Source: Liolophura sinensis
Lineage: Eukaryota; Mollusca; Polyplacophora; Chitonida; Chitonidae
Length of the DNA: 64,000 bases
Assembly (NCBI RefSeq): GCF_032854445.1
Contig: NC_088302.1
Span: 53,352,046-53,416,045, forward strand
Direction: 5' to 3'
A model generated the notes under the pieces. That model saw nothing but the letters and a program-made list of their open reading frames with translations. It searched no databases and was not told where the DNA came from. Made by a program: the position numbers and the translations under genes. Positions 28,240 to 61,350 of this stretch are shown here, piece after piece; the first letter of the stretch is position 1, and every line of letters begins with the position of its first letter.

Positions 28240-28350
28240 TCGAAGGTTTGCACCTCGGTTACTTGCACCCATAGAACTAACATCCATCGTACAAGTGAAG
28301 AAAATTTCTTAGTATGGGGTTAACCCATTGTCAAACAAATAAATAAATTA
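28240..28350 (+). repeat. decayed SINE tail
   Basis: catcgtacaagtgaagaaaa, then tttcttagtatggggttaac and caaacaaataaataa keep the order of the family-2 3' end with numerous changes. Confidence 0.5.
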
Positions 28351-30252: not shown

Positions 30253-30354
30253 AACGGCACGGCCACCGGATTCCACGTTTAGACATGAACTGGTCTTTAC
30301 ACCTGATGCGGAAACCTTCGTTACTGTATACAGATGTCCGTCGCCTGGCCTCAG
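30253..30354 (+). CDS. candidate upstream coding exon of the KSR-like gene
   Basis: An AG (cggggctacag) precedes an open stretch of 102 nt that ends in ctcag followed by gtgtgg. In the frame starting one base in, it reads 33 codons ending VTVYRCPSPGL plus a two-base AG. The next exon at 30580 begins with a single base before its codons, so the phases match and would make a serine. Another frame is also open, and the encoded segment has no motif I recognise. It would not supply the missing first C1 histidine. Confidence 0.25.
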
Positions 30355-30579
30355 GTGTGGGCTGTATCGCTGGCATTTATCTTTGCGTGGCAAAGCATTG
30401 ACGTCACAAGTCCCTGAGTTCAAAAAATCATTACGTCACAGATAGCGATTTTATATATATTAGGCCGTTATGTAGTCAGCTGGTAGAGTAGTTTCGCCGG
30501 GCGAATAGCTGTTCGTGGACATAAGCTGTACTGTGGCTGTAACCCCTCTTTACTGAAAATAAGTGCTTGTGTTTTGCAG

Positions 30580-30666
30580 CATGACTGCCGAATTAGGGAA
30601 CCACGAACGCTGCAGCACCTGCAGAAAGGCAATCTTCAACAAGCTGTACCATTGCAAGCATTGCAG
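30580..30666 (+). CDS. KSR: KSR-like exon A (C1 finger, first half)
   Basis: Acceptor tgttttgcag, donor gtaagt. One leading base, then codons from ATG, ending in phase 2. Encodes the first four zinc ligands (CSTC and CKHC), with KHC shared with KSR C1 domains. The ATG may be internal or the true start. Confidence 0.82.
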
Positions 30667-33600: not shown

Positions 33601-36600
33601 ACCTTTTAGTGGGCCAGTAACTTTGTCAGAGGCCGATGGTTTACAACTGATCGTGTTAACATGAATTAAAGAATAATAAAAACAAAATGAAAATTAAAGT
33701 CATTTGTTCACGTACAGATTTTTTCTCCAATAGCAAGTGGTAACGTACAATTAAGAAGTTCCAGTCTGCTGATAAAGTGTGCAACGTTACATTGGTTGGT
33801 TGGTTTGTTTTTCGCTCTGCGCACCATGAGTACAGCTAGCTGATGGACGATTTCTGTGTCAACTTGTGACAGCTTGATGGATTGTATTAACCAACTGGCT
33901 GTTTCAGACTCTTGTTGGGTAGTCTTCTTGAAAACATGCTTCTATTTTGAGCAGGCTGCCATAGGCAAAATCATTTTTCCACATGGACTTATATTTGCGA
34001 CTGATGTGTGCTGATGATGTGCTTGTTTTGTATCAAATATCCAGCATTGCTATATTTTTCGTTTTCTGTTTTTCCCAAACTCTTCGTCATATAGAATAAA
34101 CTTTCCAAGTGTTGGAATAATTTAGATATAGACGAATGCTGGCAGACTTGAGGTGGTTGTCCCCTCTACAGTATACACTGGAATAGCCATGTCGCGCATT
34201 CTGAAACTGCCAGCTGCTGGAGAGGGGGTTTCTGCCACACAGCCTTTGTGGGTTGATAAGTGGTACTCCTTCAAGGTTATCGGCAAAATAAATCCTTGAA
34301 ATTGGATAAGTGTACTTCATCGGCCCCCGGTGGTTATATTTTTTAATCGCCCTATTCCGCACAGTTTGAAAACCGCCGTAAGGTGCTTTGGGTAGGTTGG
34401 TTCCTGATAAATCAGGCGTACTTCATTTTAGGAACTGTCCCATTTTAAAAAGACGTGGATCTTCAGCAATTTTAATTACTAAAACATTCTTTGCCTTGTC
34501 TCCATGACTAAATATCAACGAAATGATTTCTTCTCCAAGAATTTGGCTTTTCTGGTGAACATATTTTACCCAACACATTGGTGAAGGCACAAACGCAACA
34601 CTATAGCCTCGGAATAACCCATGTACAGCTAATTCGCTTTTGTACCCAACGGCTAACTTCTTGTGGTGGACTTACTCATACAGTTAGTCTTCTCAGTGAA
34701 GCTACTGTGTCTCTACTTTTCACCAAAGCTAATGTGTGCAAATATAGAAAAAAAATCAACAGGATTCAAGTTTTGTTCAACTCACATTCCGGCTTGCTCT
34801 CCAAAATATTATTTTGTTGAAGAAATAGTGGTTTTGACGTTGTTTTATCAAAACGTGTTGACTCAAATTAGAGGAAAAGACCCTGTAAGGTGGTCTTTTG
34901 GCTCATCGACGAAACAGGGTGTCAATCATCGGCCAACCCCAACCCGCAAACTGGGTCATCGACAGAAAGCCACTGCAGTGCTGTTCACAGGCTATTTCAC
35001 GCTATAGCCATTCGTATGCAGTACCTGTCATCATTCCGCACTGTTGACTCCAGATATGTTTATACAACATTATGCAGAAATTATGCATTCAATTCTCCTC
35101 TACCAGCATAACACAATTTTAAATTTAGTTTGTATTCTGTCAAAATTATGCATTTCAGGCAGACACTGTTTTCCGCAGAAATGAAAATCCGGAACGCTCT
35201 ATTTCCAACTCACTATAATAAAGCATATGTATTCAGAAAAAAATTATTGTTGGAGGGGGATTTGATACATCCGCAAAGGGCCAAATCCATGCGGTACCGA
35301 TTTCTTTCTTCGCTGGCCCAGTCGTTTAATGCGTCGTTCTCGATGCACAAAATAGGTCCTTAATCCAACGTACTCTGCCGCTTTTCCCATCACCTATAAG
35401 CCTGACTGTTGTCGAATAAGGAAAATATTCTTGATTTATTTATTTATTTGATGGGCGAAAATTGTTCACGAGCTGAAAGAAAGAATGAAATAAATGAATA
35501 ACAATAACCCGGGGTGTGCGGGGTTCTGTGTTCAGTTGCGAACATTTGTCACAATAAAGATGTATCAAACTTTTCGTTGCAGACGGCAAGCGTCTAACCT
35601 GAGTGATTCACTAGGAGACTGTACCATACCGTTCGCTGATTTGGAGTTTGGGGAATGTATTAGAAGTGGCCGTCGACAGCAAATCCACAGGTGAGCATTT
35701 CGTCGGAACTTACCAACGACAAATTTGTCGTTCTAAGGAGAACTGTGTAGGTAAATGCCTTAGTATAAACGAGTGAATGATTATAGCTTGACGCCACTTC
35801 GTCAGTATTGCCATATCATTGTAAGAACGTGTTTACATCAGAAGACAGTAAACGGTTTTCGATGCGATAATGAGAACATCCAAAATCAAACAAAGGTAGA
35901 CGGACATTTATAATCGTCTAAATTAACTTGAACGTCAGATAAAATTCGAAAACCAATTCATATTTTTAATATATATAACGTCCTTCAGTGTAGGTTGTTG
36001 GTATTTATACTGTTATTGTTTAGTTTATAAGCAAATGACTGAGGCTGGTCAGTACAATGGCAAACTTTATTCAGACTCATCAAGATTACTGGTAGGAGTG
36101 AAATGATGACGGTCTTCCTGTATCACGTTTACAGAGGCAGGTGGCATGGTGACGTCATCATCCACACATTCCGTGACCTGGACGATGAGGAGGTAAAGTT
36201 CTTTCTGCGGGAGGTGTCCAACATGAGCATGATACGTCATGACAACATTACGCTGTTCATGGGGGCGTGTCTGGAACCTCCGACGCTAGCAGTTGTCAGC
36301 GGGTAAGTCCAAGTTATCCTGATTGTTGCTTGATCAGTGCCTTAGCATGTACTATGTGGCCGCTTGAAATGACACGCCAAAGTGTTCTTCTTGAACGGTA
36401 GCTCTGCAGAGGACCTCAAAAGTTCTACACTTGGGGTATGATTAGACGGTAGACCATGGCTGCCTATATGTTAATGGCAAGAGATTACTAGTGATCTTGT
36501 AAGCAGTTAACATAAAGAACCAGTTGAATGAAAAAGTGAAAAGTCTTTATTAAATTCAACCTCCCAGTGCGAGATTGAATCCAGTTCGTATGTACTCCTG

Positions 36601-39600
36601 AGGTTGGAGGGTCTACCAGAGTTGTGAAGATATCAGCGGAAACAGATAAGGGATTCATTTGTGTGAACAGCATGCAACTAACACACGGCATATGAGAGAA
36701 ATTTGGGCAGATGTTGTTGCCTTCTTTTGCTATGCTCAACATAACGTTTGGACATTTGAAGTCATTTTAGTAAACTCTGGAGTTTCCATTTACATCCATA
36801 GATATTTCATTGGAAAGTCACCATGCTAACGCCTGGCAGTGTATCTATGACAACAGCTACGAGCAGTTGTTTTAGGTAAATTCCTCATGATCCCACGACA
36901 AACTTTTAAGACATTCGAAACTTTGTGTTTGTTGCAGGTTGAGCCGGCGACCTTCTCTCTACGAGAGTATCCATATAAAGGGGGAGAAGATGCAGCTGCA
37001 CATGCGCGTACAGATAATCCGGCAGATTGCCCAGGCTATGGGCTACCTCCACGCTAAAGGTATCATCCTTAGGAGGCTCAACACGAAAAACATCTTCCTT
37101 GAACCGAAAGTGAAAATCTCCATCATGGATCACGGCATGAGTCAGCAGAAATGTGATAGGTATGTTGGCTGTTGTCGGTAGTTGGTTGATTTATTGATTG
37201 TTTGATTACTAAAAGAGCGAGTCTGGGTATGATTTGTATGAGAAATCGGATAGATGAGTTAGCCGCTGTCATCTAATTGGTGAGGTAAGAAATCCAACAT
37301 GTTGCTCATAAGGGATAGGGACTTAGATGCTTAAAGCGCTGGCGGAATCCATTTGTTACTGTTTAGGATGCGGCTTTTAGTCGAAAGATTTGTTAGGTAA
37401 AAGTTGTTGGTTTGCTCTGGGCACTCCGGTTTCCTCCACCCATAAAGTTGGCCGCTTTCATATAAAAGTCATATATAAGTCTTTAAACGATGTTTAACAC
37501 CAATCAGTCAATCAATCAATCATGGGGTATGAGCTGATTCGGAGTAAGTGGATCAGAAATGGGACAGGTGTGGTACTGATTTGGCTATCATTGCTTCATA
37601 GTGGTGTCATGGGGCGTAGGTTTAAAGTGCATCGATCGTGTTTGAAGAGTTTTTGGGTCATGAAATGACAAAATTATGACAGGAATATTTTGTATTTTCT
37701 TTACTAAGTGTTTCATATTGTTCAACGCGAGATGTTGTTTTCCTTTAACTGATTCGCCATAACACATTGATAAACAGCTGATATGACAACTAACAATTTG
37801 ATTTGCCAACAGGTCAGACAAAGGGTGTATTCCTAAAGGTCACTTGACCTACATCGCCCCTGAACTGTTAAGGACCGTCCGAGTGGAGCCCCCAAGGCTG
37901 AGGACTGACGAAACATTCACACGAGAGACCGATGTGTTTGCTTTTGGGTAAGTAAAATCCACCGATAATCTGTCACGCTCTAGAAATGTTACGCTTACAA
38001 GAAACCGTGTAGTGTAACAGTCCTTAAAGCGCTTAAAACATTGGCCTTTTCAGTACACCAGATATAAAGAGACGCTAATACTGAAAGAATCTGAATGGAT
38101 AGGCGTTTTTAGCATTCATTCTCACAGTATAAACATGATATTAAATACAGTTCAAATTTTCGATAAGAAATCCAACCCCACAACGAGCCCACAGAGCAAA
38201 GCGTTGGGAGCCGACGAGCAGACTATGACATCACTGTAATACCGGCCTATGGCTGATGTCGAGTTTTCATCACCATATCAACAAACTCGCGAGTACTGCC
38301 CAGTAGCACTCAAAACATATGTATGGTCCGTATATTTGTTCTAATGTACACATAACGTATCATATAATGTTACACTGACGCCTTGTATAGAAATGAATTC
38401 TTTCACTTCAATTCCTACTCACTGAATTAATTTCTTAAGGAGGCTTACATATGCGAACTATAAAGTGTAACAAACCCTGAAGAAAAAAATTGCTTTTATT
38501 TATTTTTTTATTTTATTTGTTATTTAATGAAAGGTGAACTTATAGAATGAGTGCAGCAGCGCACCCGTAGGTCATACGTTACAAAGTACAAAACGCCTGA
38601 TGTTATTATTGGGCGATTTTAAGTACACGTGTAGAATTGCATCTTGAGTATTTGATTATTATCAGTATAGTTAAAACTATTTTTTTTAATCATAGCTTTA
38701 TACAATAAAATATTTCGGCCGTGACCTATTTGGGCCCCTGTTGTCGCCATCTGTGGGTATAAACCATGTGGACATAATGTCCTTGCCATGTATCGCGAGG
38801 AAAGACTTTTCAGATCGATACACGATTTTCTTTCATCCAGACAGAAAGCAAACTGTGTCTAACTAGGTCACACATCTGCGCATTCTGACAAGCAGAAGCT
38901 AGCACGTTCATTTCAAACTCCGTGTTGCGAGCAGGTGCTTGTCAGTCGTTATCAGTTTACGTTTATGGTTACTGCGCTTCGTCAAACTCAAAACCATGAC
39001 CACGAAATTAAAGGGAAAAAAGCCTCAAGACCACAGTGGTTATTACATATCATTATATATCTTATTCAACTGCATCGTGCTGATGTAGGGCTTGTTAACG
39101 TGTCCCGTGAAACTCCTTAAAGGAGTAAACCAAAAAGCATTGTAAACTACTCATGAGATCTTATCAAAACTATTTTCGCAACCATTTTATCCCCTGTAAC
39201 TGTGGAAACTTTATGTCCAGAAAGGATACAGTTAAATTTTAACCAACAAAGAGGGGCTAGAAGCTTCTGATCCCAGTTTGACGAAGGTCCTAGAGATTTA
39301 CTTTCAGGTGACTTCCATGATGACGTTTTATACAATTACCTTTACTGTTGACCTCTTAGGGTATAGATGCATTCACTTATCGCTAAGACCGTTTCCCTAA
39401 AACTGAGCCAATGTAATAAAAAAAAAAACTATTAGAAAAACGACTTAAAATTAATACGGGATTATTATTGCATCGAGAACGTGTGATAAATATGTGGGGT
39501 ATGACGTAGAGTATTCTGCAATTCAGTGATATTAAGTGATTATCAGTCTATTGTCGATGGGAAGACGATGAGATATACCTTGTAGGATGATGCACTATGT

Positions 39601-42600
39601 GGCGTCTGGATAGCCAATCTGGACTAAGATAGATATTGAAGAAGAAGACTTAAATATGAACAATTTCACGTTCGTACTATCTTTAATTTAAGCTGATTGT
39701 TACATTGCTTTCAGGACGGTGATGTATGAAGTGTTCGCAGGCCATTTTCCCTATTCGGACCTCCCTCCAGATGTGGTCATCTATCAAGTGGGCAAAGGTT
39801 ATCGGCAGCCGCTTTCTGACCTCAACTGCCTGTCTTTCGTAAAGGTAGGTAAACACTGATATTACCGCATTTTCCAAAGCTTTCCCACCATTGCCAGTTG
39901 TCGTGTTTTGACTCTCCTGTTCACAAAGATGGATCTAGGTTTTATTTTTATTTTTGCGAATTGGGGAGGTGGTGGGAGGGATATGAGCACTCTACAGAAT
40001 ACTTGTCCACTGGAGATTGTTGTGTGAATTGCGTTTGAGGTTTCTGTTTTGTTTATTAGATAGTATGGAACTTTGGCCAGTTTATGGCCACATTGTTACG
40101 ATTCGAGTTGCTCAGTTAGCCAAAATCAAGTACAAAACATTGCAGTCCGTGCCGTTCCTAGCGATCAGCTTAGTATAGGAATTCCTCATTCAATGTATGT
40201 ATGTACGTGTGTATGTGTGCTTGCGTTTTACCTACTTAACAGTTTTTCATCCATATTTGACGAGGAGAGAAGAGTAATTGGGCATCACCCATTGAAAACA
40301 AGAAGTAATGTTGATATATTCAGCAATCCAACATTAAATCCCCTCCCCCTCCTCTTTACCAGACCCCCCACACTCACGTACTTCCCCAATTCACATATAC
40401 AAAGCTATGCTTGGCACACGTGTTTACCTAGTTGATATAGAGTGACAAAGACACATCACATATGCCCTTCATCCTTATCCCCTGAGTACACATTGCTGTG
40501 CGTATCAAAGGTCGACATCGACTTTCAGATCATATGTTTGACAGGGTTTTGATTTGGGCCGGATCAGATAACTCATTTCCAAGAACATTCAATCCTGTTC
40601 AGATTTCTTCGATTGGAGTTAGTGCTTCTGAGAAAGCCAGTAATGATTAATGGACATGGAACGTTTTTAGTACTGTTATCATTAAAATTTAACCTCCATG
40701 TGTTTTTTCTTAATGACTCTATAGTGGTTTCAGCTTGTAAATATGTCACCTTCTGAAGGAAAACAACTGAAAGTGGAAATATGGTTCCAAAATATAATAA
40801 CTGGAGGGCAATTCCGAAAAATTATTTTTGACTGAAGTCAGCGTTAGGAAATATTTATGATCACATTTGTTCAATTCGTGGCAGATTTGCCTTGTACTGG
40901 ATAGGTGTTATGACTCGTCATCGTTTAACCGTTCGATATACTTACGTCAATCTGGCTTTGTGGAATGAAGTTTTTTCGGTTGAATAGCACTAGAGTAGTC
41001 AAGCGTAAGGTACACTGTAGATATGTAGGGTAGGCCATGCTCTTTTCCATGTAATCTATCGATATTCACATAGGTCACTTGTACCTGGTTAAGGAAGTTC
41101 GGCTACGAACGTATCTTTAGAAAATCTTGTTTAAAACCAGAATGGCTAGAACAGAAACAGTAAAAAAGATTATAACATGGATACTAAACCCAGAGTGGTG
41201 ACAACAGTGTGTTTGTTGGCAACTGGTCACACGTAACCGATGAAATCCGGCATCTTGTCAGTTTACTTCCGGTAGGGGTTTATTCTATCTGTTCATTTAA
41301 ATGTTTGAAACAGCTAAAGTTAAGCAGGTCTTCGAATCTTGTGGCATGTCTGAATCAATTTTGTTTGAATGTATCACAGCGAAGTGCAAGTTTGAGTTTC
41401 TTTCAGTAAGGGTTTTATGAGAAGAACACAAAATTATACATGTACATGGGCGTATGTAGGCCTACTATCACTAATCACTACTTATTCGAACCAATCCAAA
41501 CACTTTGCTTTTTTTTTATTCGACATACGAACCAAATTTAGGAACTCGTTTGCTTGGTCACTTGACTGTTGTGAGGGTTATGGACGTCCGTTATAACATT
41601 ACATTACTTAAACAATATCCATATAGGTTACATGTACATAAATTCACTGCTAAGAAATCGTCCATCTGCTATTGGCAGATTTGCTACAACCTGTTCCATG
41701 GCTAACGTCATAATGTTATAAATGGATTGCGAGGAAACAGGGAACCATTTAAATAGGTGCTATCTGACAGACTGCAATATATAACCATGGTGGCGTTAGA
41801 GCGATTGAATGTTTGATAGTACTTACAACTGTTCTAAATGTCACCCCCTGCCATTTTACTGGTGATAAGACAGGAACATTCCAGCAGTTCTTGTAATGCA
41901 GCCTGTATATACAGGAGTTCGAGGAAAGTGTCGAGGTATATCCAGTAATGGCAAGATGTGTGTCGAAAGGTATTCAGATCACTCCTGATGAAATACATAA
42001 TCCGAACAATGCATGTGGAAATCCTCGCATCTGACACGGACATGGGATCATGTAGCACATTGGACGCTTGCTATGGTACCAGGAAAACGAACAGTTCGCT
42101 TAATACATTCCTTTCCGGTTTATCTTTAAAAGTTTCGATCAGTTTTGAATTAGAAATAGCTTTAGTGTGCTGAATTCCTCTAAAGGCCCGTTCTCACAAT
42201 TCGATTTGTAGTGCCATCTTGTAGCATTCGACTTCTAGTGTTCGACAATAATTGCATTTAACATGGTTGCATGCAACTTGTCTCGGATATCGGGTTTTTT
42301 CCTCCTTCATTTCCGTTGCTAAGATTTGGCCTTTTTTGTCAGCACGTTTGTCATAATGAGTTTTTTGACTGCAATTAACGTGATGTGTAATTTCGTGGTA
42401 GATCTAGACAGAGATAGTAAGCAATAAATTGCTTGGTTGCAGAGAGCGGTACACCAGTCTGCTTTTTCATGGTATAAGCATTTGTAGGATTATAGTCATG
42501 GTTGTTGACATGCTTAAATTGGTAACACAAAGGGCCGTATTTCTTTCGACTAGCTCACAACTCGTTGAATGCGACAAATGTCGAAATGATTCGGATTTTC

Positions 42601-44036
42601 TGACGGTTCGACTCGGTTGCGTGCTACAAGTTGGTACTACAAATCGCACGCTGAGAACGAGCCATAAAGGTTTGAACAGCATTAGTTATCTTTGCAAAAA
42701 TGTTTAGAGTTCAAACCAAGTTATCACACATTGGCCTAATATCAATACAACATTCCTTCAAACAAACACATGTAAATATAGGTAATTGTAAAAGAGAGCC
42801 CATGCATGCATGGTGTGTTTTGTCCTTGAAATCTAATCTCGCGACAACATGATACCAAGGTCACAGGCTGTTAACTTGGAGGCCAACCGTATTTATTTAT
42901 TTGATTGGTGTTTAACATATGGCCGGGAAGAGGAAGCCAGCAGGAGCTGGACTTGAATTCCCAGCAACCGCATTGGAGAGAAGCTCCTGATCATTGTGCC
43001 CCGCTGAAGGCCAACCGTACAATCATGGTTCGTTATGTGGTGTTGAACACAACATTTCCTCTTCATGGCACACCAAGCCGTAAGTTTCATAAAGTTAATT
43101 AAAAGCAATCCAGCCTTTTTAATTACTCACACTTTGACTTTATATTTTCCTGCAGGATCTGATAAAAGATTGCTGGACGCACGACTCCCTTAGCAGGCCT
43201 GAATTCTGTGAAATCACCAAAGGCCTCATCCACAACGTAAGTTTTATTTTACCTATTCATTTACCAAACAGAAACACTACGTTCACATGTTTCATCAGTC
43301 TTTCCTTATATTATTTTACATTCTAAATCAGCATTGAATGGTGCACTTCTGTTCTCTTTCTAAGGTCACTTAGGCGAAAAACCGAGCCATATATAGCCTT
43401 TGTCCCATTGGTGTATATGGGGAATACAATGGCTCGTATCTCGTAAAATGCTAAACAGATACATGTTCTAAACGCACTGTATGTGGACATCAAGGCCAGA
43501 AGTGTTTAACTGGGTCAAACATATGTGCCTTATATAGGTGCTACGATATAGCTTTACTTTCTATACAGATACTTGGGTTTGCACATAGACAAAATTAGCA
43601 GAGTATGTCATATAGGCCTACTTGGGTTTGCATATAAAGTCCAGGTGACACGTGACAGGGTAAATACGGCCTCTTGACTATTTACCTCAGTTAGAGTTTT
43701 ATTCTAACTGTTCATATAAATTCATAAATGGTAGCAAAATACACGTCCCCTAGCACCACCTCTCTCATGTTGGCAAATTTGACAAAACCTTTTGGGGGCA
43801 TTTTTGCCGTGAAATCTAACGGCTGAGAAATGTTGTTGAATGTATGTACATATAACCGACAGCTTGACCGATGGCCTACAGGTGATCATCAAGTTGACCT
43901 ACATTAAAATTACATGGCGTCTGTTTTCACACTTGTGTATTCTTTGTTTCAGGCCGCTCTTCACAAACGTCACAGCTCATCGGAACCGGAGGGCATCAAC
44001 AGGTCAGGTTTCAGAAACAGGTCTTTTTTCACCTGA
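30581..44036 (+). CDS. KSR: KSR-like pseudokinase scaffold (gene span, 11 exons; N-terminus unresolved)
   Basis: Joining 30581-30666, 31105-31181, 31500-32390, 33401-33479, 35583-35690, 36135-36302, 36938-37159, 37813-37947, 39715-39844, 43156-43236 and 43953-44036 gives 686 codons plus stop with every phase consistent. KSR proteins scaffold RAF, MEK and ERK downstream of Ras in the cytoplasm and at the membrane. Seen here: a C1-like zinc finger (Cys 11, 14, 25, 28, 36, 44), a long Ser-rich linker (about 56-390), and a kinase fold from about 391 with GRWHGDV, LFMGAC, GYLHAKGI, APE (559-561) and DVFAFG. Catalytic features are lost: no Gly-rich loop (RSGRRQQ), VAIK Lys is His424, HRD is LRR (514-516), DFG is DHG (534-536); Glu440 and Asn521 remain. 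The first ATG follows an acceptor directly, so upstream exons with the N-terminal domain probably exist. The divergence suggests a paralogue rather than the canonical gene. Confidence 0.85.
31105..31181 (+). CDS. KSR: KSR-like exon B (C1 finger, second half)
   Basis: Acceptor taaattacag, donor gtaaaa. Continues GRCKRRCKHSGTTSC in the C-x4-[H]-x2-C-x7-C register, but Lys33 sits where the family has His. Followed by a basic run RRCARKRTKR. Confidence 0.82.
31500..32390 (+). CDS. KSR: KSR-like exon C (Ser-rich linker)
   Basis: Acceptor ctttttttttcag, donor gtaggt. The 891-nt exon is open throughout (296 full codons), by far the longest coding stretch in the window. It encodes a Ser/Gln-rich, probably disordered linker between the C1 and kinase-like regions, with a Ser cluster (SSSDSCSCCSYSTTSSLSS) near its middle. 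Linkers of KSR proteins carry 14-3-3 and ERK docking sites; I do not see an exact FxFP motif. Confidence 0.8.
32391..35582. other. KSR-like introns 3 and 4, nothing else recognised
   Basis: Apart from exon D, this 3.2 kb shows only a weak SINE-tail relic around 35400-35455 (aaaatattcttgatttattt). Open frames near 34578-35363 are not supported. Confidence 0.5.
33401..33479 (+). CDS. KSR: KSR-like exon D
   Basis: Acceptor attctttcag, donor gtaggt, phases 1 to 2. Encodes an acidic segment (PPDEVRDEVHVYVDELSE) before the kinase-like domain. Confidence 0.75.
35583..35690 (+). CDS. KSR: KSR-like exon E (kinase N-lobe start)
   Basis: Acceptor tttcgttgcag, donor gtgagc. Contains a basophilic RRQAS site, then IPFADLEFGECI, which aligns with the KSR stretch IPF..VELGEPI. 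The glycine-rich loop is replaced by RSGRRQQ. Confidence 0.85.
36135..36302 (+). CDS. KSR: KSR-like exon F (N-lobe)
   Basis: Acceptor cgtttacag, donor gtaagt. Encodes GRWHGDVIIH, the helix C segment FLREVSN with the conserved Glu, RHDNITLFMGAC and EPPTLAVV, strongly KSR/RAF-like. His replaces the ATP-binding Lys (Arg in many KSRs). Confidence 0.92.
36938..37159 (+). CDS. KSR: KSR-like exon G (hinge to activation segment)
   Basis: Acceptor tgtttgttgcag, donor gtatgt. Contains SLYESIH, IRQIAQAMGYLHAKGI, then LRRLNTKNIF where catalytic kinases have HRDLxxxN, and MDHG in place of DFG. Asn521 is kept. Confidence 0.93.
37415..37512 (+). repeat. SINE family 2 3' fragment in a KSR-like intron
   Basis: gcactccggtttcctccacc, then cataaagttggccgctttca and taacaccaatcagtcaatca match the centre and tail of the family in decayed form. 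Confidence 0.6.
37813..37947 (+). CDS. KSR: KSR-like exon H (APE region)
   Basis: Acceptor atttgccaacag, donor gtaagt. Encodes LTYIAPELLR and, after a variable insert, TRETDVFAFG, the conserved C-lobe DVxxFG motif. Confidence 0.93.
37948..39714. other. KSR-like intron 8, nothing recognised
   Basis: 1.8 kb of AT-rich intron with T-rich runs near 38490-38540. No exon, RNA gene or clear repeat. Confidence 0.5.
39715..39844 (+). CDS. KSR: KSR-like exon I (C-lobe)
   Basis: Acceptor attgctttcag, donor gtaggt, ends in phase 0. Encodes TVMYEVFAGHFPYSD and IYQVGKGYRQPL, matching the KSR/RAF C-lobe pattern. Confidence 0.93.
39845..42183. other. KSR-like intron 9, left part, nothing recognised
   Basis: About 2.3 kb before the MITE. 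Open frames at 40073-40435 and 41209-42173 lack domain or splice support. Confidence 0.5.
42184..42664. mobile_element. 481-bp non-autonomous DNA transposon (PIF/Harbinger-like)
   Basis: The left end aggcccgttctcacaattcg, then atttgtagtgccatcttgta, and the reverse complement of the right end (tggctcgttctcagcgtgcg, then atttgtagtaccaacttgta) form imperfect inverted repeats of about 48 bp. TAA stands at 42181-42183 and 42665-42667 as a 3-bp target duplication. Three-base TWA duplications and GGGCC-like ends are usual for PIF/Harbinger elements. No transposase is encoded, so it is a MITE in a KSR-like intron. Confidence 0.75.
42892..43007 (-). mobile_element. short internally deleted SINE (family 2) with 12-bp target duplication
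   Basis: The word aggccaaccgta at 42880-42891 and 43008-43019 flanks a 116-bp minus-strand element. On the minus strand it has a B-box region (aattcaagtccagctcctgc), ggcttcctcttcccggcc, then directly aacaccaatcaaataaataa. The central domain of the family is missing. Confidence 0.85.
43156..43236 (+). CDS. KSR: KSR-like exon J (C-lobe)
   Basis: Acceptor attttcctgcag, donor gtaagt, phase 0 at both ends. Encodes DLIKDCWTHDSLSRPEFCEI, the CW..xxRP motif typical of TKL kinases. A 3.3-kb intron with two mobile elements precedes it. Confidence 0.92.
43953..44036 (+). CDS. KSR: KSR-like terminal exon K
   Basis: Acceptor tctttgtttcag in phase 0; 27 codons then TGA at 44034-44036. The peptide LHKRHSSSEPEG sits where KSRs have a basic-Ser tail after the last helix. 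A longer open frame here is out of phase. Confidence 0.75.
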   Translation, partial: AALHKRHSSSEPEGINRSGFRNRSFFT

Positions 44037-50643: not shown

Positions 50644-53600
50644 CTGAAAATATATACAGATACATGATGGAATATTGCTTAACTACAATTTGGATAATTG
50701 TTTACTCAATGTTTTGTTCACACATACAACAGCAGTCAGTTTCTCTGCCGGAGGAAACAATAGTGATTGGAGTAAATCACCAGTGTTTGGTGAGTAACTG
50801 GCGAAGTTTTTCCCACAGGACATCCCCATTTTCCCCATTCATCATCAAAACAAGCTCACGGTGTATACCTTCTTGGTGGAAGGAAAACAATCGCCAACAA
50901 TCTTTATGTCAAATCACCTACATGTATTAAAGCAGCTGTGTGAGCAATGTCAACAGCATATTGCACCAGTGAAAGTTTGGGGGAGGTCCAGTATTCAGTG
51001 CCCTACGCTGGGATTGAACCAGCATCCAGTTTGCCTTAGCAATTGAAGACAAATATCTTCACCAGTCCTTCCGTGCATGCTAATGTCCTGGATATGGATA
51101 ATGTTCCCATAGCCAGGCCACCAGATGGGAATCAGGTCCTACAATGCTTGTGGCTAATGTCCTTATAACCAGGCCACCAGATGTGAATCAGGTCCTACAG
51201 TGTTTATGGCTCGTGTTCCCATAACCAGGCCACCAGATGGGAATCAGGTCCTACAGTGTTTATGGCTCGTGTTCCCATAGCCAGGCCACCAGATGGGAAT
51301 CAGGTCCTACAGTGTTTATGGCTCGTGTTCCCATAACCAGGCCACCAGATGGGAATCAGGTCCTACAGTGTTTATGGCTCGTGTTCCCATAACCAGACCA
51401 CCAGATGTGAATAAGGTCCTACAGTGTTTATGGCTCGTGTTCCCATAACCAGACCACCAGATGTGAATAAGGTCCTACAGTGTTTATGGTTCGTGTTCCC
51501 ATAACCAGGCCACCAGATGTGAATCAGTTCCTACAGTGTTTATGGCTTGTGTTCCCATAATCAGGCCACCAGATGTGAATCAGGTCCTACAGTGTTTATG
51601 GCTCGTGTTCCCATAACCAGGCCACCAGATGTGAATAAGTTCCTACAGTGTTTATGGCTCGTGTTCCCATAACCAGGCCACCAGATGTGAATAAGGTCCT
51701 ACAGTGTTTATGGCTCGTGTTCCCATAACCAGGCCACTAGATGTGAATAAGGTCCTACAGTGTTTATGGCTCGTGTTCCCATAACCAGGCCACCAGATGT
51801 GAATAAGGTCCTACAGTGTTTATGGCTCGTGTTCCCATAACCAGGCCACCAGATGTGAATAAGGTCCTACAGTGTTTATGGCTCGTGTTCCCATAACCAG
51901 GCCACCAAATGTGAATAAGGTCCTACAGTGTTTATGGCTCGTGTTCCCATAACCAGACCACCAGATGTGAATCAGGTCCTACAATGCTTGTGGCTAATGT
52001 CCTTATAACCAGGCCACCAGATGTAAATAAGGTCTTGCAGTGCATATGGCTAATGTTCCAACAACCGGGCTACCGGAACTGTCAGAAAGGCTGAACTTTT
52101 GTCAGAAGTTATTGAAGTGCAGAGTGTAAGTGACTAGTACCACAAAGCCAAGCATGGATTGTCTCTGAGCACGAAGGTTGATTCTAGTAACATGACAAAC
52201 CTCTATCGCAGTCTTGCAGGTTTGAGCTTTGACCGACAAGGGGTCCCATATTCCAAACTCCTGCATGTCCACCAGGTTCCCTGTCTCTCCATCCACCCCC
52301 CAGGTTGTGCTCTTAGCTTGAGTATGTTTAGCCTGAAACAGAACAATCACTGTCACATTACACCTCAGCCAGGTAAAGTTACATCCGCACTCACAAATGA
52401 CAAAGGCTTTAATTCATATACTTAAAGGATACATGAAAATGTCTTAAAGAAATATATGCAAACAAAAATAAATGAGAAAAACTTATTAGAGGCATATTTT
52501 ATGCATATTTTCCATCAATGGTCGGGAATATTCGGAAGAGTTTCATACATCCTTTCAGTTAAAACAGAAAAATGACTCAAAAGTCTCATCCATGATTTTA
52601 GAAGGAATACTAAACTGTGCCAAGTACCCATGTAGAAGCTGTTTTCACCTATGTAGTTTATCACTATCTATGGCAACTAATCAGAAACCTTTATCAAATT
52701 TACATTTGTCAAATATGAGTAGTCAATCACCCTTAATATAAGGGAGTACACTCAAGTTATGACAAGTCAGTTGATTTTGTGTGAGGCTGGAGCCTTACCC
52801 GGAGAGCGGTCAGCGTCCTGATCATGTTAACTCCACAGTTCTGGATTAGAGTGCGAGGAATCACCTCCAGAGCTCTGGCCACTGCACGGTAGGGCCACTG
52901 GTGCACGCCCGTGATGCTCTTAGCCTTCTCGTTCATTGCCTGAGGGAGTAAATTAAATACCATAGATCATAAAACAGGTACTAATGCTCTGTGTATATAT
53001 GCATTATCACAATCCCAGTAATTATTAATTATACCATCTGACTACAAGGGTTACTCTGATCATAAGACAACAGATTTGAGCTAGAGTAATTTCTTTGACA
53101 TGATCACCTCCCCCCCTCTCCACCTGGCACTAACAAATGGTCAAACCATTCCACCTTACACTGATCACAAGTCTACACACCTGAGCTAGAGCCATTTCTG
53201 TGGCCCCTCCACCTGGCACTAACAAAGGGTCAACCGTTCCACCTTACACTGATCACAAGTCTACACACCTGAGCTAGAGCCATTTCTGTGGCCCCTCCAC
53301 CTGGCACTAACAAATGGTCAACCATTTCACCTTATACTGATCACAAGTCTACACACCTGAGCTAGAGCCACTTCTGTGGCCCCTTCGCCTGGCACTAACA
53401 AAGGGTAAACCATTCCACCTTACACTGATCACAAGTCTACACACCTGAGCTAGAACCATTTCTCTGGCCCCTCCACCTGGCACTAACAAAGGGTCAACCA
53501 TTCCACCTTACACTGATCACAAGTGTACACACCTGAGCTAGAGCCATTACTCTGGCCCCTCCACCTGGCACTAACAAACTGATCACAAGTCTACACACCT

Positions 53601-56600
53601 GAGCTAGAGCCATTTCTCTGGCCCCTCCACCTGGCACTAACAAACTGATCACAAGTCTACACACCTGAGCTAGAGCCATTTCTGTGGCACCTGAATCTGG
53701 CACTAACAAACTGATCACAAGTCTACACACCTGAGCTAGAGCCATTTCTCTGGCCCCTCCACCTGGCACTAACAAACTGATCACAAGTCTACACACCTGA
53801 GCTAGAGCCATTTCTGTGGCCCCTCCACCTGGCACCAACAAACTGATCACAAGTCTACACACCTGAGCTAGAGCCATTTCTGTGGCCCTGCCACCTGGCA
53901 CCAACAAACTGATCACAAGTCTACACACCTGAGCCAGAGCCATTTCTGTGGCCCCTCCACCTGGCACTAACATGGGATCCACCATCACATTTCGGGCAAC
54001 ATTCATTGCATCTTGCAGGTTCCTCTCCACCTCATTCAGGATGTCTTTACTCGCCCCTCTCAGCAGGATCGTACAGGCTTTAGGGTCCTGACAGTCGACC
54101 AGGAAGGTGAAGTACCTGTAGGTACAAGGGAGATAATCATGATAAACACCAGCAAACAGCAAAGTGAACATCTGCTTAAATAATTTATACTACAAAAGCC
54201 AGTGTTTTAGAAAAGACTGCAGGTTTAACAATACTATTGCGATGAAAGTAAACCTAAAACATAGGCTTGTTTCCTAGAAGTATGCATTTAAAAGAAAACT
54301 CTGAAATCATGTTCAGCTTACTCTGTGTGTCTACTGCTACATGTTAGGTAGCAGAGAGCACAGTGTAACTTGTGAATACAAATAAACCAGTGACCTAAAG
54401 GGCTGTCATCTCATGGGCCGATGAAAGATCAAATGACACACTGACAACATGGGCACAGAGGAACAAACTTTGCTTCTTTTTTTTGTCTTTAACAAATAAT
54501 TAAAACTTGTCTGTATTACAGAGAGTAGACCACAGGACCTGCTATATAGCTGATCTTAAGAGTTTCTTTTATCTTGTCAAACAAAAAAAAAAAAATTGCC
54601 ACTCAATTCAGAAACTAAACAATCCTTAATGCTGTGTTAATGACTTACTCTTCACCAATCTTTTTAATTTCAAAAAGCCCACATCTTGTACCCACATCAT
54701 CTTCTTTCAATTCATCTGTTCTTGCACAAATTGTTGCTCCACAAGCTCTGAAATACAGAACAGTATTTAAATTTTAAAAAATCCAAAGCTGTACCCGACA
54801 AAGTTATATTTTAAATTTCTACTGAAATAGTAGAAAAATCAAGCATTTATTTTCCGAATTATTTGCTATAATTGCTGAAGAAGTACTCTACAATAAATAA
54901 GATAATGCAGGCTCTTCACTAAATTAGAGCCTCTTGTGGAGCAGTGTTAAACTCCAGTCCAATAAATCAAGATAAAGACTCCGCCACAGCAATTTCTATA
55001 ACTTACTGCATGTGGCAATCCTACTGTTATTTGTCTTGTGTAACTGTCTGACACAGCTATAGAATACACACCCAGCAATTCTATTGTTATCTGTCTTGTG
55101 TAACTGTCTGACACAGCTGTAGAAGACTCACCTAGCAATCCTGTTGTTATCTGTCTTGCATTCCCACCTGATACAACTGCAGAAGACTAACCTGGCAATG
55201 TTATTGTTATCTGTCTTGTGTAACTGTCTGACACAGCTGTAGAAGACTCATGTGGCAATTCTATTGTCATCTGTCTGATACAGCTGTAGAAGACACACCA
55301 GGCATTTCCATTGTTATCTGTCTTGCATCCCCACCTGTTACAGGTGTAGAAGACTCACCTAGCAATTCTGTTGTTATCTGTCTTGCGTAACCGTCTAATG
55401 CAGCTAATGCCTGCTTTCACAAGGAAATGCTGGGCAAGATCTGACACCCCTTTCTCTGTTATCACCAGATCAGGCTTCAGCTTGATTATGTCATTACAAA
55501 TCTGCTGAATGTAGTCTTCCTCCAGCTTCAGGATTTTACTGCACACAGAAAAGAACAGGTGTAAACTGATTATTTCTCAGGTAAGTAAGCAAAGTTCTGA
55601 GCTTATTTAATTCAGATGAAAACTAAATCCATAAGCAAAGTTAGAAAAAGCCCACTACAAAACTGTGAAATAAAACAAAAGACAACAGGCAGTAGATCTG
55701 TTCTGTCTCTAAGACACAGGTAAATTTAATCCCCCAATGCACTGCACAGATTAGTTGCAGCTGGGATTGTAAGATACTTACGCAAAATCTTCTTCCTTTG
55801 TTATCTCAATGTTGGTCTGTGAACATAAAATAGCGGTCAGCAGATCAGGAAATAATCCCAAGGAGTGAGCTGCTATCTTGATTTTACCTTGTGTTATTCA
55901 TTTGTTTTACATCTACTTTCACCAGAGTAATCCAGTTTTGGGTCAGAGAACGACACCAGTTAACTTTCCATACCATTGTCACTATCAAATGTGACACTGT
56001 TATTTTAATTCTTTTCTAGTGTTTGTTTTACTCTGTTCTTCATACTTTTACTTCTATGTTATCAGGAGTCCTCAAATTGCAGGTGGGCAGACCACACCTC
56101 TATTACCAGAGACTTTCCAACAACAATCTACAACACGAGTCCAATTTGCTTATCAAAAAGATCATTTGATCTCTTTTTGGGATTCACACTGTTTAACAAT
56201 TATTCCCCATCAAACCAATGAGCCAACTGTGCCATAAGCTACAAATAATTACTCCTGCTTTCTTTAAAAATACCTGGCTCTCCCCTTTTTTGTACTCCAA
56301 ATTGCAGTCCAGCAGAATTATTCTCGGATTTTCAATTCGCCTGAATAGGAGAAACAAAGCTTGATGACCACAAAATTATGGTATTTGATCAAAGAATGTA
56401 CATTGTTCCAATGTTTATAAAGGTTATTAAAAGTATCAAAATATTTTCCACAGAAATTCAGGACAAACTGGAAATGCATGTCCAGCATATGAATTTCAAG
56501 AAGGTGTCATTTTGCCAATGGTAATTATATTGATTTTGGGAAAAAGGTCTGTGTTGAGAATTGAATGTGGCTAAGCTCTGTGGTTACCTCCTCATCTTAG

Positions 56601-59600
56601 GATGGACTACATCCTTGTTGACCATTACCCCTCGTAACACCTTTGAATCTTCAATAGATCCTCCGGGCACCTGTCAACAGAAAACAAACAATTTATTTAT
56701 TTGACTGGTGTTTTTCAAGAATATTTCACTTATATTATATATAAGTATATATACAACATCAGCTAGCATTATGGTGGGAAGAAACCGATCAGATCCCAGG
56801 GCACATCCACAACCATCTGCGGGTTGCTCTCAGACTGCACCACTCATGACCAGAAAGGAAGCCAGCATGGGTTGGACTCACAGCACACAGATGAATACTT
56901 CAGTTAGGTGATGATGGTCCTATTAATGGGTGGATGTAAGAGGAACCTGTCCTTCTGCCAGAAGTTCTCAAGGAACTCCTTTCACAGTGCTTATATTAAA
57001 TGTTCTAAATACAGAGACTGTAATTCAGACCACTAAGTCAGCCGGGGCTGTCCCAACATATAAGTATAAGTGGTCAAAACATATGATCTCCAGACGTTAT
57101 TATTCACTTATCGGTTGCTTTCTCAGCTGCTTCGGTTTCTGGTTTCAAGTTCAGCTCATGCTGGCTTCCTCTCCAGCCGTAAGTGAGAAGGTCTTGCAGC
57201 AACCTACAGATGGTCGTGGGTTTTCCCCCAGGCTCTGCCTGGTTTCCGCCCACTATAATGCTGGCCGTCGTTGTATAAGTGAAATATTCTTGAGTACAGC
57301 ATAAAACACCAAATATATAAATAAATAAATAAGTTAGTTTCTGGTTCATGCCTTTCCATTCCCAACTGCTTATTTTCTTGCTAATAACAAGATGTTAATA
57401 ACAGTATTGGAAGATAAACAAGACTTTAAAGTTTTAAGATCATAGCTTGCAATATGAAGATCAGGATGGTCTACCCACTCTGACCTACAATCTCAACATT
57501 GTACAAAACTGCATATATATTCTTCAACTGGAATGTCTTTGCCATGGAAACCACTGGCTACATGTACTTACTTTTTCTACTTTTGCATATCTTTTAATGT
57601 CAATCTCTTTCCTGCCATTCTCCTCCAAAGCAACTGTAGCTGTGGCTTCCAGGGCAATTTCACACGCTAAATCCGACCTAAATTGAGAAAACAGAATAGA
57701 AACAAACCATAGATCAACAATCTGACCTCAACTGAGACAACACAGTATTTAGTTATTTATTTATTTAATAAATTTTGCTTAATGCCATACTCAAGACTAT
57801 AGAACCCATAAACCATCACACCCAGCGTCAGGGAATAGTTTGGTTTGATAGACTGCAACATCAGTTAAGAAGCCACTTGAAAATACCAAGTACTAATACA
57901 TTATCCACCCACAAATCGCAAAGTACCTTACATAACAAAACAGAAAAAGAAAGTTCAACACTTACCATTTTCTCATAAATTTTGTTCCTATACAACTTTT
58001 GACAATCTTCAGCATCTCATTTTTGTTCTTCACATCAACCGGTACACTGCAACACAACAGGTAACAAATGGTCTTCAAAGCTCTTTCTAAATTGCTGTTA
58101 GGACAAGCTAAGTATACAGCAGGTAACCCACCAAGAAGCATATTGGAAGAGTCCACTACTGTTGCAATCTGCATGTACCAGGTAATTTACGACAAGGATG
58201 TCCCCGAAACTAACCGACTGCTTGAAACTGACAAGCCCAGCTCAATCCCAAACATCACCCCAATCAACATGACCAATGGCCAGGCAGAAGTTTGAAAGTC
58301 ATCTTTTTATTTGTTTTCAAAATACTTAGTTCATAAAGCATAAGAGAAGGACGGATGGAGATGAAACTATACATAAAGATCACTCAGTCATGAGCAGAAA
58401 ACAATTTTACACACTGCCGATAACAAGGACATTCATTCTGCCACAAGCAAAATGCTTTTAGATTAGCTTTTATTTGACATCAAAGCAAAATTATTTATTG
58501 TGTATTGCATAACATTTCTTCCCTCCAGTGGAAGACACTGAGGAGGAAACTGGGCAGAGTACAAGGATGACCACCTTATGATACAAAATCATAACCAATT
58601 TAAGGAGAGCTACATTCCATTCACTCCTGTCATCTAGGTCTTGTCTTCAGGGAGCAAGTATCTGGACTATTTAGCTACCAAGGGTTCAATATTTCATGCA
58701 ATATACATTAACAGTAATGGACGTTTGAATTTTGATTCCAGCCAATACTGACGCTATTTTTGTCCTGAGCATGTCCACAAGGTCCTCTAGCGCCTGTCTG
58801 AAAGCACTGATGATCACGGTGGGGTGCATCTGCTGTTGGAGAAAAGGTTCTGCTACTGACAACATCTCACCTCCTGGGAAATGCAAACATCCCACAATTA
58901 ACTTCCATGTATGATGATGTAAAATATAGGCACCATCCCAATGACAAACACTGCATACCAGTTACTGCAAAGTTAAGGCTTCAGTTCACGTAAATGCATA
59001 GCCGTTTGAAAACTGACTATCTCAACAGCTCCATAGTACACACGCAAGCAAAGATGGACCTTTTATACAGAAACAGTAAATTGATGTTTGTACAAAGCAA
59101 AACTGTCTACACTTAAATTTAACACTCTGAACATTGATGTGACTGAGGATATTATGAACACTGATGTGACTGAGGATATTATGAACATTGATGTGACTGA
59201 GGATATAATGAACATTGATGTGACTGAGGATATAATGAACATTGATGTGACTGAGGATATAATGAACATTGATGTGACTGTGGATGTTATGAAAATTGAT
59301 GCGACTGAGGATATTATGAACACTGGTGTGACTGAAGATATTATGAACACTGATGTGACTTAGGATATTATGAACACTGGTGTGACTGAAGATATTATGA
59401 ACATTGATGTGACTGAGGATGTTATGAAAATTGATGTGACTGAGGATATTATGAACATTGATGTGACTGAGGATATTATGAACATTGATGTGACTGAGGA
59501 TATTATGAACACTGGTGTGACTGAGGAACCTTCTGAACACTGATGTGACTGAGGATATTATGAACACTGATGTGACTGAGGATATTATGAACATTGATGC

Positions 59601-61350
59601 AACTGAGGATATTATGAACACTGATGTGACTCAGGATATTATGAACAATGATGTGACTGAGGAACCTTCTGAACACTGATGTGACTGAGGAACCTTCTGA
59701 ACATTGATGTGACTGAGGATATTATGAACATTGATGTGACTGAGGATGTTATGAACAATAATGTGACTGAGGAACCTTCTAAACACTGATGTGACTGAGG
59801 AACCTTCTGAACACTGATGTGACTGAAGAACCTTCTAAACACTGATGTGACTGAAGAACCTTCTGAAAACTGATGTGACTGAAAAACCTTCTGAACATTG
59901 ATGTGACTGAAGAACCTTCTGAACACTGATGTGACTGAAGAACCTTCTGAACATTGATGTGACTGAGAATATTATGAACATTGATGTGACTGAAGAACCT
60001 TCTGTACATTGATGTGACTGAGGAACCTTCTGAACATTGACGTGACTGAGGATATTATGAACATTGATGTGACTGAGGATGTTATGAACAATAATGTGAC
60101 TGAGGAACCTTCTAAACACTGATGTGACTGAGGAACCTTCTGAACACTGATGTGACTGAAGAACCTTCTGAACATTGATGTGACTGAAGAACCTTCTGAA
60201 CACTGATGTGACTGAAGAACCTTCTGAAAACTGATGTGACAGGATATTATGAACACTGATGTGACTGAGGATGTTATGAACACTGACATGACTGAGGAAC
60301 ATGTACACACCCAGAATGATAACAGTGGTGGTTCCATCCCCAACCTCCTCATCCTGTGTCCTGGCCACCTCAATCATGGACTTGGCCGCTGGGTGCTGCA
60401 CTGTGATCTGTACATAAATACATCAACTGTGAGCAGAGTGGGTGATCTCTGTACATAAATACATCAAATGTTAGCAATATGGGTGGGCTCTGTACACAAA
60501 TACATCGAATGTTAGCAGAGTGGGTGGGCTCTGTACATAAATACATCAAATGTTAGCAATGTGGGTGATCTCTGTACATAAATACATCAAATGTTAGCAA
60601 TGTGGGTGATCTCTGTACATAAATACATCAAATGTTACCAATGTGGGTGATCTCTGTACATAAATACATCAAATGTTACCAATGTGGGTGGGCTCTGTAG
60701 ACAAATACATCGAATGTTAGCAATATGGGTGGGCTCTGTACACAAATACATCTGTTAGCAATGTGGGTGGGCTCTGTACACAAATACAACAGTTAGCAGA
60801 GTGGGTGATTTCAGTACACAAATACATCAAGTGTTAGCAGAGTGGGTAATCTCTGTAACAAATACATCAAGTGTTAGCAATGTGGGTGGGCTCTGTACAC
60901 AAATACATCAACTGTTAGCAATGTGGGTTGGTTCTGTACACAAATACATTATATGGAGACTGAGCAAATCTGCTACCACCATCAGTGTATCCTTCGGCCA
61001 ACATAGGCAGATATCTAAAACCTCATGTCAAAAGTCACTACTTGGTCTGTGCACACTTCACGAAGCAGAGCCAAAAAATGCAAACTGTTACCAATGTTGA
61101 GAACACACATCCCTTCTCTGACTCTTCAAAATATCAAATCAGCAAGAAAGCAACAGTTCCATGCTGTAATCACTTAGCATTTTATTGAACAATTTCACTT
61201 GATGTACATAACACTACTATCACGTTTGTATCGTGCATAAACTTTACTGTAATGAATTATCAGGTCACCAGGTGATGTCAAACTTACCTCCCTGAGAATG
61301 GCATTCCCATCATTGGTCATCACAATGCCTCCCATCGGGTCCATCAACAT
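50536..61350 (-). CDS. CCT3: CCT3, TRiC/CCT chaperonin subunit gamma (gene span, 14 exons in window, 5' end missing)
   Basis: Joining the 14 minus-strand exons (61288-61350 down to 50536-50643) gives 1,500 nt, 499 codons plus TGA, with all phases consistent. The product is one of eight subunits of the cytosolic ATP-driven ring that folds actin, tubulin and other proteins. Seen: [16 protein letters not shown] and [14 protein letters not shown] (chaperonin signatures and nucleotide-binding loops), an apical part with [19 protein letters not shown] and [28 protein letters not shown], the [14 protein letters not shown] nucleotide loop, and [17 protein letters not shown]. Human CCT3 has about 545 residues, so roughly 45 N-terminal codons are absent and must lie beyond 64000. 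Nothing suggests a pseudogene. Introns are loaded with minisatellites and several SINEs. Confidence 0.96.
51090..52075. repeat. 56-bp minisatellite in CCT3 intron 13, about 17 copies
   Basis: The unit gtttatggctcgtgttccca, then taaccaggccaccagatgtg and aataaggtcctaca repeats every 56 bp (starts at 51202 and 51258). Central copies are nearly identical; the edges are diverged. It does not include exon sequence. Confidence 0.94.
52201..52332 (-). CDS. CCT3: CCT3 exon 13
   Basis: Acceptor ctgtttcag, donor gtttgt, phase 0. Encodes [20 protein letters not shown] then [20 protein letters not shown]. Confidence 0.96.
52799..52939 (-). CDS. CCT3: CCT3 exon 12
   Basis: Acceptor tactccctcag, donor gtaagg, phase 0. 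Encodes [36 protein letters not shown] and IRTLTALR. Confidence 0.96.
53090..53928. repeat. CCT3 exon-11-edge array (66- and 88-bp units, about 12 copies)
   Basis: Each unit repeats the last codons of exon 11 ([14 protein letters not shown] on the minus strand), the CAG/gtgtgt donor and the first intron bases. About seven units are 66 bp apart (53533, 53599, ...), and about five distal units are 88 bp apart (53181, 53269, 53357) with an extra ccattccaccttacac segment. The 66-bp units stay open on the minus strand. Confidence 0.93.
53929..54115 (-). CDS. CCT3: CCT3 exon 11
   Basis: Acceptor gtacctacag, donor gtgtgt. Encodes [37 protein letters not shown] and [14 protein letters not shown]. 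The exon end and donor seed the downstream array; I took the first donor because it joins exon 12 exactly as in the family. Confidence 0.94.
54649..54747 (-). CDS. CCT3: CCT3 exon 10
   Basis: Acceptor agtatttcag-type (gtatttcag), donor gtaagt. Encodes [20 protein letters not shown] then [14 protein letters not shown] replaces the GA usual in vertebrate GTGAGL. Confidence 0.94.
55008..55358. repeat. CCT3 exon-9-edge array (60-bp units, 6 copies)
   Basis: On the minus strand each unit consists of a 45-nt stretch resembling the last codons of exon 9 ([14 protein letters not shown]-like) and 15 nt, gtgagtcttctacag, that end one copy and begin the next. Copies at 55192-55236, 55132-55176 and 55072-55116 keep both AG and GT borders and an open frame; others have lost one border. 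Confidence 0.9.
55359..55538 (-). CDS. CCT3: CCT3 exon 9
   Basis: Acceptor tctgtgtgcag, donor gtgagt. Encodes [20 protein letters not shown] and [20 protein letters not shown], ending KTDNNRIA plus AG. Its last 45 bases and donor are the source of the 60-bp array downstream. Confidence 0.96.
55782..55816 (-). CDS. CCT3: CCT3 exon 8 (35-nt small exon)
   Basis: Acceptor ttatgttcacag, donor gtaagt. Encodes [11 protein letters not shown] plus two bases that join the next exon as Ala. Confidence 0.93.
56274..56340 (-). CDS. CCT3: CCT3 exon 7
   Basis: Acceptor ctcctattcag, donor gtattt. Encodes [20 protein letters not shown] then SQ, phase 0 end. Confidence 0.95.
56588..56670 (-). CDS. CCT3: CCT3 exon 6
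   Basis: Acceptor ctgttgacag, donor gtaacc. Encodes [20 protein letters not shown] then VVHPKMR, ending in phase 2. Confidence 0.95.
56689..56905 (-). mobile_element. SINE family 2 copy in a CCT3 intron
   Basis: tttatttatttgactggtgt, caagaatatttcacttatat, ctagcattatggtgggaaga and aaggaagccagcatgggttg appear in the inverted family order. An AT-rich insertion lies near 56735-56755. The head is degraded. Confidence 0.78.
57125..57335 (+). mobile_element. SINE family 2 copy in a CCT3 intron, opposite orientation
   Basis: gttcagctcatgctggcttc, gcctggtttccgcccactat and aagtgaaatattcttgagta, then aaataaataaataag. A degraded B box (gtttcaagttcagc) precedes it. The copy at 56689-56905 is inverted relative to this one, so the two could pair in the intron RNA. 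Confidence 0.8.
57572..57677 (-). CDS. CCT3: CCT3 exon 5
   Basis: Acceptor tctcaatttag, donor gtaagt. Encodes [20 protein letters not shown] then [25 protein letters not shown] is near-identical to other CCT3 proteins. Confidence 0.95.
57966..58046 (-). CDS. CCT3: CCT3 exon 4
   Basis: Acceptor ttgtgttgcag, donor gtaagt. Encodes [20 protein letters not shown] then TKFMRK, ending in phase 2. Confidence 0.93.
58753..58873 (-). CDS. CCT3: CCT3 exon 3
   Basis: Acceptor catttcccag, donor gtcagt after a two-base GC. Encodes [20 protein letters not shown] and on to LRTKI. The downstream GTATTG would break the frame; gtcagt keeps it and gives KIAVPVD, as in the family. Confidence 0.93.
59135..60300. 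repeat. 27/28-bp two-type minisatellite in a CCT3 intron, about 42 copies
   Basis: Type A is gatgtgactgaggatattat followed by gaacatt (27 bp); type B is gatgtgactgaggaaccttc followed by tgaacact (28 bp). Type A dominates 59135-59630 and type B 59650-60240, with mixed blocks. Long frames on both strands here are array read-through. Confidence 0.94.
60311..60407 (-). CDS. CCT3: CCT3 exon 2
   Basis: Acceptor tttatgtacag, donor gtgtgt. Encodes [20 protein letters not shown] followed by [17 protein letters not shown] is the ATP-binding chaperonin motif. Minisatellites lie on both sides. Confidence 0.96.
60411..60955. repeat. 41-bp minisatellite abutting the CCT3 exon 2 acceptor, about 13 copies
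   Basis: The unit gtgggtgatctctgtacata followed by aatacatcaaatgttagcaat includes, on the minus strand, gatgtatttatgtacag, the same sequence as the exon 2 acceptor. Later copies use gggctctgtacacaaatac. Confidence 0.92.
61288..61350 (-). CDS. CCT3: CCT3 exon 1 of those visible
   Basis: Acceptor atatttgtag, donor gtaagt, phase 0 at both ends. Encodes 21 residues, [20 protein letters not shown] plus E, the TCP-1 signature around the NDG loop. Confidence 0.94.

Follow-up and report, generated by a model that had tools for sequence, protein, structure and literature searches.

Tandem copies of an exon-intron edge in a CCT3 gene: a probable intronic minisatellite of the mirage type

Introduction

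When an intron opens with several copies of the end of the preceding exon, splice signals included, do these copies act as small additional exons, or are they repeats that leave the transcript with the rest of the intron? The question is raised by the sequence downstream of exon 9 of a CCT3 gene, in a window of 64,000 nt (GC content of 0.406; CpG observed/expected ratio of 0.71). An earlier note on this DNA had proposed that in-frame mini-exon cassettes stand there in tandem, and had offered two readings of them, either length variation in a chaperonin apical domain or a duplicated exon edge that is decaying without harm.

The CCT3 gene in the window

On the minus strand of the window lies the 3′ portion of the CCT3 gene, which encodes T-complex protein 1 gamma. 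According to the exon model, 14 coding exons span positions 61350 to 50536, with all 13 donors starting in GT and all 14 acceptors ending in AG. No 5′ end of this gene was found within the 64,000 nt, and the exon numbers used here count only the exons found in the window (exon 9 is the ninth found). Joined with no cassette included, the exons encode a protein of 499 residues that is collinear with residues 49–537 of PDB chain 4b2t_G (E = 8.4e-245), and the alignment contains one single-residue gap, located away from the exon 9/10 border.

Exon 9 (55359..55538, minus strand) is 180 nt long, leaves 2 bases over in the phases of the exon model, and ends at the authentic 5′ splice site TAG/gtgagt (55353..55358, minus strand), with a donor score of 10.45. 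The canonical acceptor for the following intron belongs to exon 10 (54649..54747, minus strand), and the intron between them, intron 9 (54748–55358, minus strand; 611 nt), houses the array in question. The exon 9/10 border corresponds to about residue 325 of 4b2t_G, and the same stretch is covered by the CCT-gamma fragment 1gml, which we take to be the apical domain.

Anatomy of the exon 9 array

The source of the repeat is the final 47 nt of exon 9 (55359–55405) followed by gtgagtcttctac, and the 60-bp unit consists of the last 45–47 nt of exon 9 together with the first 13–15 nt of intron 9. Six copies follow this source, between 54997 and 55343 on the minus strand. Tandem Repeats Finder (TRF) reports a period of 60 at 55015–55276 (score 335), with overlapping rows that extend to 55383, and a separate repeat search found a 135-nt family with five copies in the array. 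At a lag of 60, identity over 55405–54997 is 0.68, compared with a maximum of 0.39 among 2000 mononucleotide shuffles at lags of 20–199. Identity from unit to unit is 53–85% when the exon 9 edge is counted in. The tandem array pointed out in the earlier note is thus real, and its description of the unit, as 45 nt of exon-9-like sequence plus 15 nt that supply GT and AG, is anatomically right.

The copies are numbered here c1 to c6 in the order in which they follow exon 9, and all lie on the minus strand. Copy c1 (55284..55343; 60 nt) has the donor CTG/gtgtgt, with ACAC in place of an AG directly before the copy, while c2 (55237..55283; 47 nt) is missing 13 nt and is without a GT donor. The next three contain the proposed cassettes, each of 45 nt and open: c3 at 55192..55236 (ctacag/CTG to CAG/gttagt; whole unit 55236–55177), c4 at 55132..55176 (donor TAG/gtgagt; whole unit 55176–55117) and c5 at 55072..55116 (TGG/gtgtgt; whole unit 55116–55057). 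The last and most diverged copy, c6 (54997..55056), is 53–70% identical to the other units and has lost the GT donor, although a different donor-like sequence, GCA/gtaagt, occurs in it at 55006. Overall, a GT donor is kept in four of the six copies (c1, c3, c4 and c5), an AG acceptor stands in front of five (c2–c6), and both borders occur together in three (c3, c4 and c5). Between successive copies there are exactly 15 nt from donor to next acceptor. For c3, c4 and c5 the coordinates, the paired borders and the absence of stops had been given correctly beforehand, as had the frame: exon 9 leaves 2 bases, and each 45-nt cassette is frame-neutral.

Splicing potential of the cassettes

Introns of 15 nt are too short for ordinary splicing. 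Neighbouring cassettes cannot both be joined because the gaps between them are only 15 nt, and therefore only non-adjacent cassettes could both enter a transcript by ordinary splicing. The proposal that any number of cassettes might be included fails on this point. Reading straight through adjacent cassettes was also considered and rejected: c3 into c4 is open, but a TGA interrupts the reading from exon 9 into c1 and again from c4 into c5. When exon 9 was extended to each of the seven downstream donors of the array, a stop was encountered every time.

Splice paths were enumerated from seven acceptors and seven donors picked by the analyst within the array. When every intron had to measure 60 nt or more, 8 of the 32 paths were in frame and open, comprising the canonical path, six that take in a single insert, and one that takes in two (c3 plus c5). 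Lowering the minimum to 30 nt gave a count of 9 of 36, two of them carrying two inserts, and a minimum of 15 nt would leave 31 of 208 open, some holding as many as four inserts.

Splice-site strength was scored with a rough weight matrix. The acceptors of c3, c4 and c5 score 0.57, 0.74 and 0.08, respectively, compared with 2.08–6.57 for 13 authentic acceptors of the gene. Other AGs in the array, at 55334, 55167 and 55283, score 3.65, 3.16 and 2.23, which places them inside the authentic range, and the one at 55167, lying within c4, would combine with the c4 donor into an open exon of 36 nt. The c4 donor is the best in the array; scoring 10.45, it is identical to the authentic exon 9 donor. The matrix is a blunt tool, as three AGs of intron 9 (54887, 54821 and 54818) outscore the real acceptor of exon 10. 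Judged from these sequence features, use of a cassette would be possible, and efficient use would be unlikely.

Selection on the copies

Codon-level tests were made on five of the six copies, c2 being left out for its 13-nt deletion. Each codon position supplies 15 columns. Taking exon 9 and the five copies together, the first position has 7 variable columns, the second 8 and the third 7; among the five copies alone the numbers are 7, 8 and 5. The copies carry 23 unique changes, of which 5 are synonymous, 12 are non-synonymous, 3 lead singly to a stop and 3 could not be classified; the expectation is 24% synonymous, 72% non-synonymous and 5% stop, and shifted frames yield 6 synonymous changes each. 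Synonymous enrichment among these unique changes, looked for by comparing the coding frame with the shifted frames, was not found. Mean identity across exon 9, c1, c3, c4 and c5 is 0.77 in the exonic 45 nt versus 0.83 in the intronic 15 nt, and the chance of an open frame is 0.76–0.81 per cassette for c3–c5. The copies thus lack codon-level constraint among themselves, and the coding constraint that would mark the units as alternative cassette exons is absent.

A synonymous excess does appear when the copies are compared one by one with exon 9. Of the 46 differences in these comparisons, 22 are synonymous, where 25% is expected, another 22 are non-synonymous and 2 lead to a stop, and the shifted frames show no such excess (13 of 48 and 11 of 49). 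With exon 9 and c3–c5 alone, 16, 14 and 24 differences fall at codon positions 1, 2 and 3. Constraint on the cassettes was considered as the source of this excess and set aside. Because the excess is absent among the copies alone, it is attributed to selection on exon 9 itself, together with shared changes that were counted more than once. Against the consensus of the copies, 4 of the 7 differences of exon 9 are synonymous, as expected if exon 9 is the constrained partner.

Other arrays in CCT3 and in the rest of the window

Exon 9 is not the only exon of this gene with a copied edge. A second exon-edge array, of 855 bp (53118..53972, minus strand), repeats the 3′ edge of exon 11 with its donor and the start of the intron, at a spacing of 66 and then 88 bp. 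Over 63 nt, ten copies match the exon edge with 92–97% identity, so that, counting the authentic donor (/gtgtgta), eleven near-identical donors stand in a row. The first seven of these share the reading frame, uninterrupted by a stop, in steps of 22 residues. As a source of length variation, this array would be more promising than that of exon 9.

A third array (60407..60949, minus strand) repeats the acceptor region of exon 2 in a 41-bp unit and reaches the first base of the exon. Thirteen of its 14 unit ends are in AG, and the last is the authentic acceptor. TGCTAAC, presumably a branch-point-like motif, occurs 10 times in the array, and the unit adjoining exon 2 has TGCTCAC instead. On the other side of exon 2, an array of about 43 copies of a 27-bp unit (59128..60298, minus strand) begins 12 nt inside intron 2 and so adjoins the donor without spanning the junction. 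The fifth array of the gene (51102–52074) has its nearest junction 126 nt away.

Tandem arrays make up 36% of the CCT3 span versus 8% of the remaining window. Three of the five CCT3 arrays touch a splice junction, for which random seeding gives P = 0.013; this is a post hoc figure, the pattern having been noticed before it was tested, and one of the three, the array at the exon 2 acceptor, overlaps its junction by a single base. If only two of the five are counted as touching, P is 0.106. Four of the five arrays lie within 12 nt of a junction (P = 0.003, at a distance chosen after the data had been seen).

A census of 26 junctions, searched for 1500 nt each way, singled out the same three sites. 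The best copy of the exon 9 donor scored 84, whereas none of 200 shuffles exceeded 26, while the exon 11 donor scored 110 and the exon 2 acceptor 48, and shuffle maxima for these clear three were 25–27. The exon 2 donor (30) and the exon 5 acceptor (28) were borderline, their own shuffle maxima being 27 and those of other junctions reaching 34. At the remaining 21 of the 26 junctions, no copies above the shuffles were found within 1500 nt each way.

Elsewhere, a six-frame Pfam scan of positions 1–50000, with stops rendered as X, returned a protein kinase domain and three below-cut-off matches inside a minisatellite. The kinase domain lies in pieces at 36127–37151 on the plus strand (PF07714, best E = 2.6e-10) and belongs, by eye, to what we assume to be a KSR/Raf-type gene. 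No TRF array was listed at 27000–44000, and for that reason the kinase gene gave no second test of junction arrays. The weak matches, to LPP, DUF948 and NleF, fall in a 21-bp array at 7124–7687 and were taken as chance. A common translated motif, perhaps from an interspersed repeat, was seen at 5942–6274 (plus strand) and 57107–57394 (minus strand). No Rfam family was found in the window at gathering scores.

Origin of the exon 9 array and alternative explanations

Very probably, the exon 9 array is an intronic minisatellite that was seeded on the exon-intron junction, is of the type known as a "mirage", and is spliced out together with its intron. Slippage or unequal exchange would have copied a 60-bp segment running from the 3′ end of exon 9 across the 5′ splice site into the beginning of intron 9, and the copies would then have drifted as intron sequence. 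The spliceosome would pair the authentic exon 9 donor, which comes first, with the exon 10 acceptor, thereby removing the whole array. Between the two readings offered at the outset, the harmless decay of an exon edge is the better supported, and length variation is weakened by poor acceptors, short gaps and the lack of codon bias.

The competing view is that some transcripts take in functional mini-exons (c3, c4, c5, the inner 36-nt part of c4, or c3 plus c5), which would lengthen the apical domain by 12 to 30 residues at the exon 9/10 border. Three open cassettes with both borders would allow this, as would the c4 donor, which equals that of exon 9 (10.45), and the inner c4 acceptor, which at 3.16 is within the authentic range; moreover, the introns from exon 9 to c3, c4 and c5 would measure 122, 182 and 242 nt. 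However, the acceptors of c3–c5 themselves score below all 13 authentic ones, the gaps between cassettes are 15 nt, both borders survive in only three of the six copies, and the copies show no codon bias. The point of insertion also falls inside a 13-residue stretch that is identical between the CCT3 of the window and 4b2t_G. Taken together, these points make functional mini-exons unlikely.

It is conceivable too that the copied donors serve as decoys or regulators, their occasional use extending exon 9 to a stop so that nonsense-mediated decay lowers the output of mRNA. The stops met on extension to all seven downstream donors tested, four of which score 7.9 or more, would suit such a role, but the authentic donor comes first in order and matches the strongest copy, and this explanation appears highly improbable. 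Misassembly of a repeat has a precedent of sorts, as one globin mirage was reported to be apparently wrongly assembled in a genome draft (PMC3087553). The copy number at exon 9 could still err on this account, but units that differ as strongly as these (53–85% identity) are unlike a duplicated read path, and an artefact is the most remote of the explanations.

Significance

The exon 9 cassettes are of less interest than the presence of several arrays in one gene, above all the in-frame donors of exon 11. In this single gene for a core chaperonin subunit, two arrays at donors and one at an acceptor copy splice junctions or extend up to them, and CCT3 would thus provide a natural test of how the spliceosome finds the correct site when near-identical ones lie nearby. 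The arrays also bear on the question whether duplicated exon edges contribute to the gain of introns or to changes in proteins. A bolder, and very unlikely, possibility is that splice junctions are preferred seeds of minisatellites in this genome and that the arrays feed protein variation, the allele length at CCT3 setting the range of isoforms. If that were true, the exon 11 array would offer seven in-frame, near-identical donors, extending the exon by 0 to 396 nt in 22-residue steps, and rarer cassettes of 12 or 15 residues would come from the exon 9 array.

Comparison with known systems

Tandemly duplicated alternative exons are repeated exon-like units between constitutive exons, and the CCT3 cassettes resemble them in being just that. 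They differ in that only the 3′ edge of the exon is copied, in their 15-nt spacers, and in the absence of coding constraint among the copies. A limited literature search on CCT3, amphioxus, alternative splicing and chaperonin repeats found no paper on such arrays in CCT3.

Another related process, described in a review (PMC3443670), is the gain of introns through the tandem duplication of genomic AGGT segments. The CCT3 arrays share with it the tandem copies that carry AG/GT proto-splice sites. Unlike that process, however, the CCT3 edge has been copied into an existing intron, and no new intron is evident.

The closest parallel is with the mirages of amphioxus, which are tandem copies of exon/intron borders that are said, in two reports, not to disturb splicing (PMC3087553, PMC3902484). 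In the first, mirages were reported in two globin genes, with Adh3 and other loci cited and the Adh3 mirages credited to Canestro et al. 2002; AG/GT signals occur in many, though not all, of the repeats; and the Adh3 data together with globin RT-PCR suggest regular splicing despite their presence (PMC3087553). The same report describes length instability in mirage clusters and proposes them as a route to intron gain (PMC3087553). The second describes 60-bp and 108-bp repeats at splice sites of the lancelet PGBD5 gene, cites Adh and troponin C, and leaves out an annotated PGBD5 exon within the 108-bp repeats for want of transcript support (PMC3902484).

The CCT3 arrays are likewise minisatellite-like tandem copies of an exon/intron boundary, mirages being found at 5′ or 3′ edges, and the exon 9 unit of 60 bp matches the size of one of the PGBD5 repeats. 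Each 60-bp unit at exon 9 spans the boundary, with 47 nt of exon 9 and 13 nt of intron, and, as in the mirages described, AG and GT are kept in many copies but not all (GT in 4/6, AG in 5/6, both in 3/6). The differences from the mirages described lie in the host gene, CCT3, and in its having two arrays that span donor junctions and one that reaches an acceptor. By its anatomy, the CCT3 array is most likely a further instance of the mirage kind.
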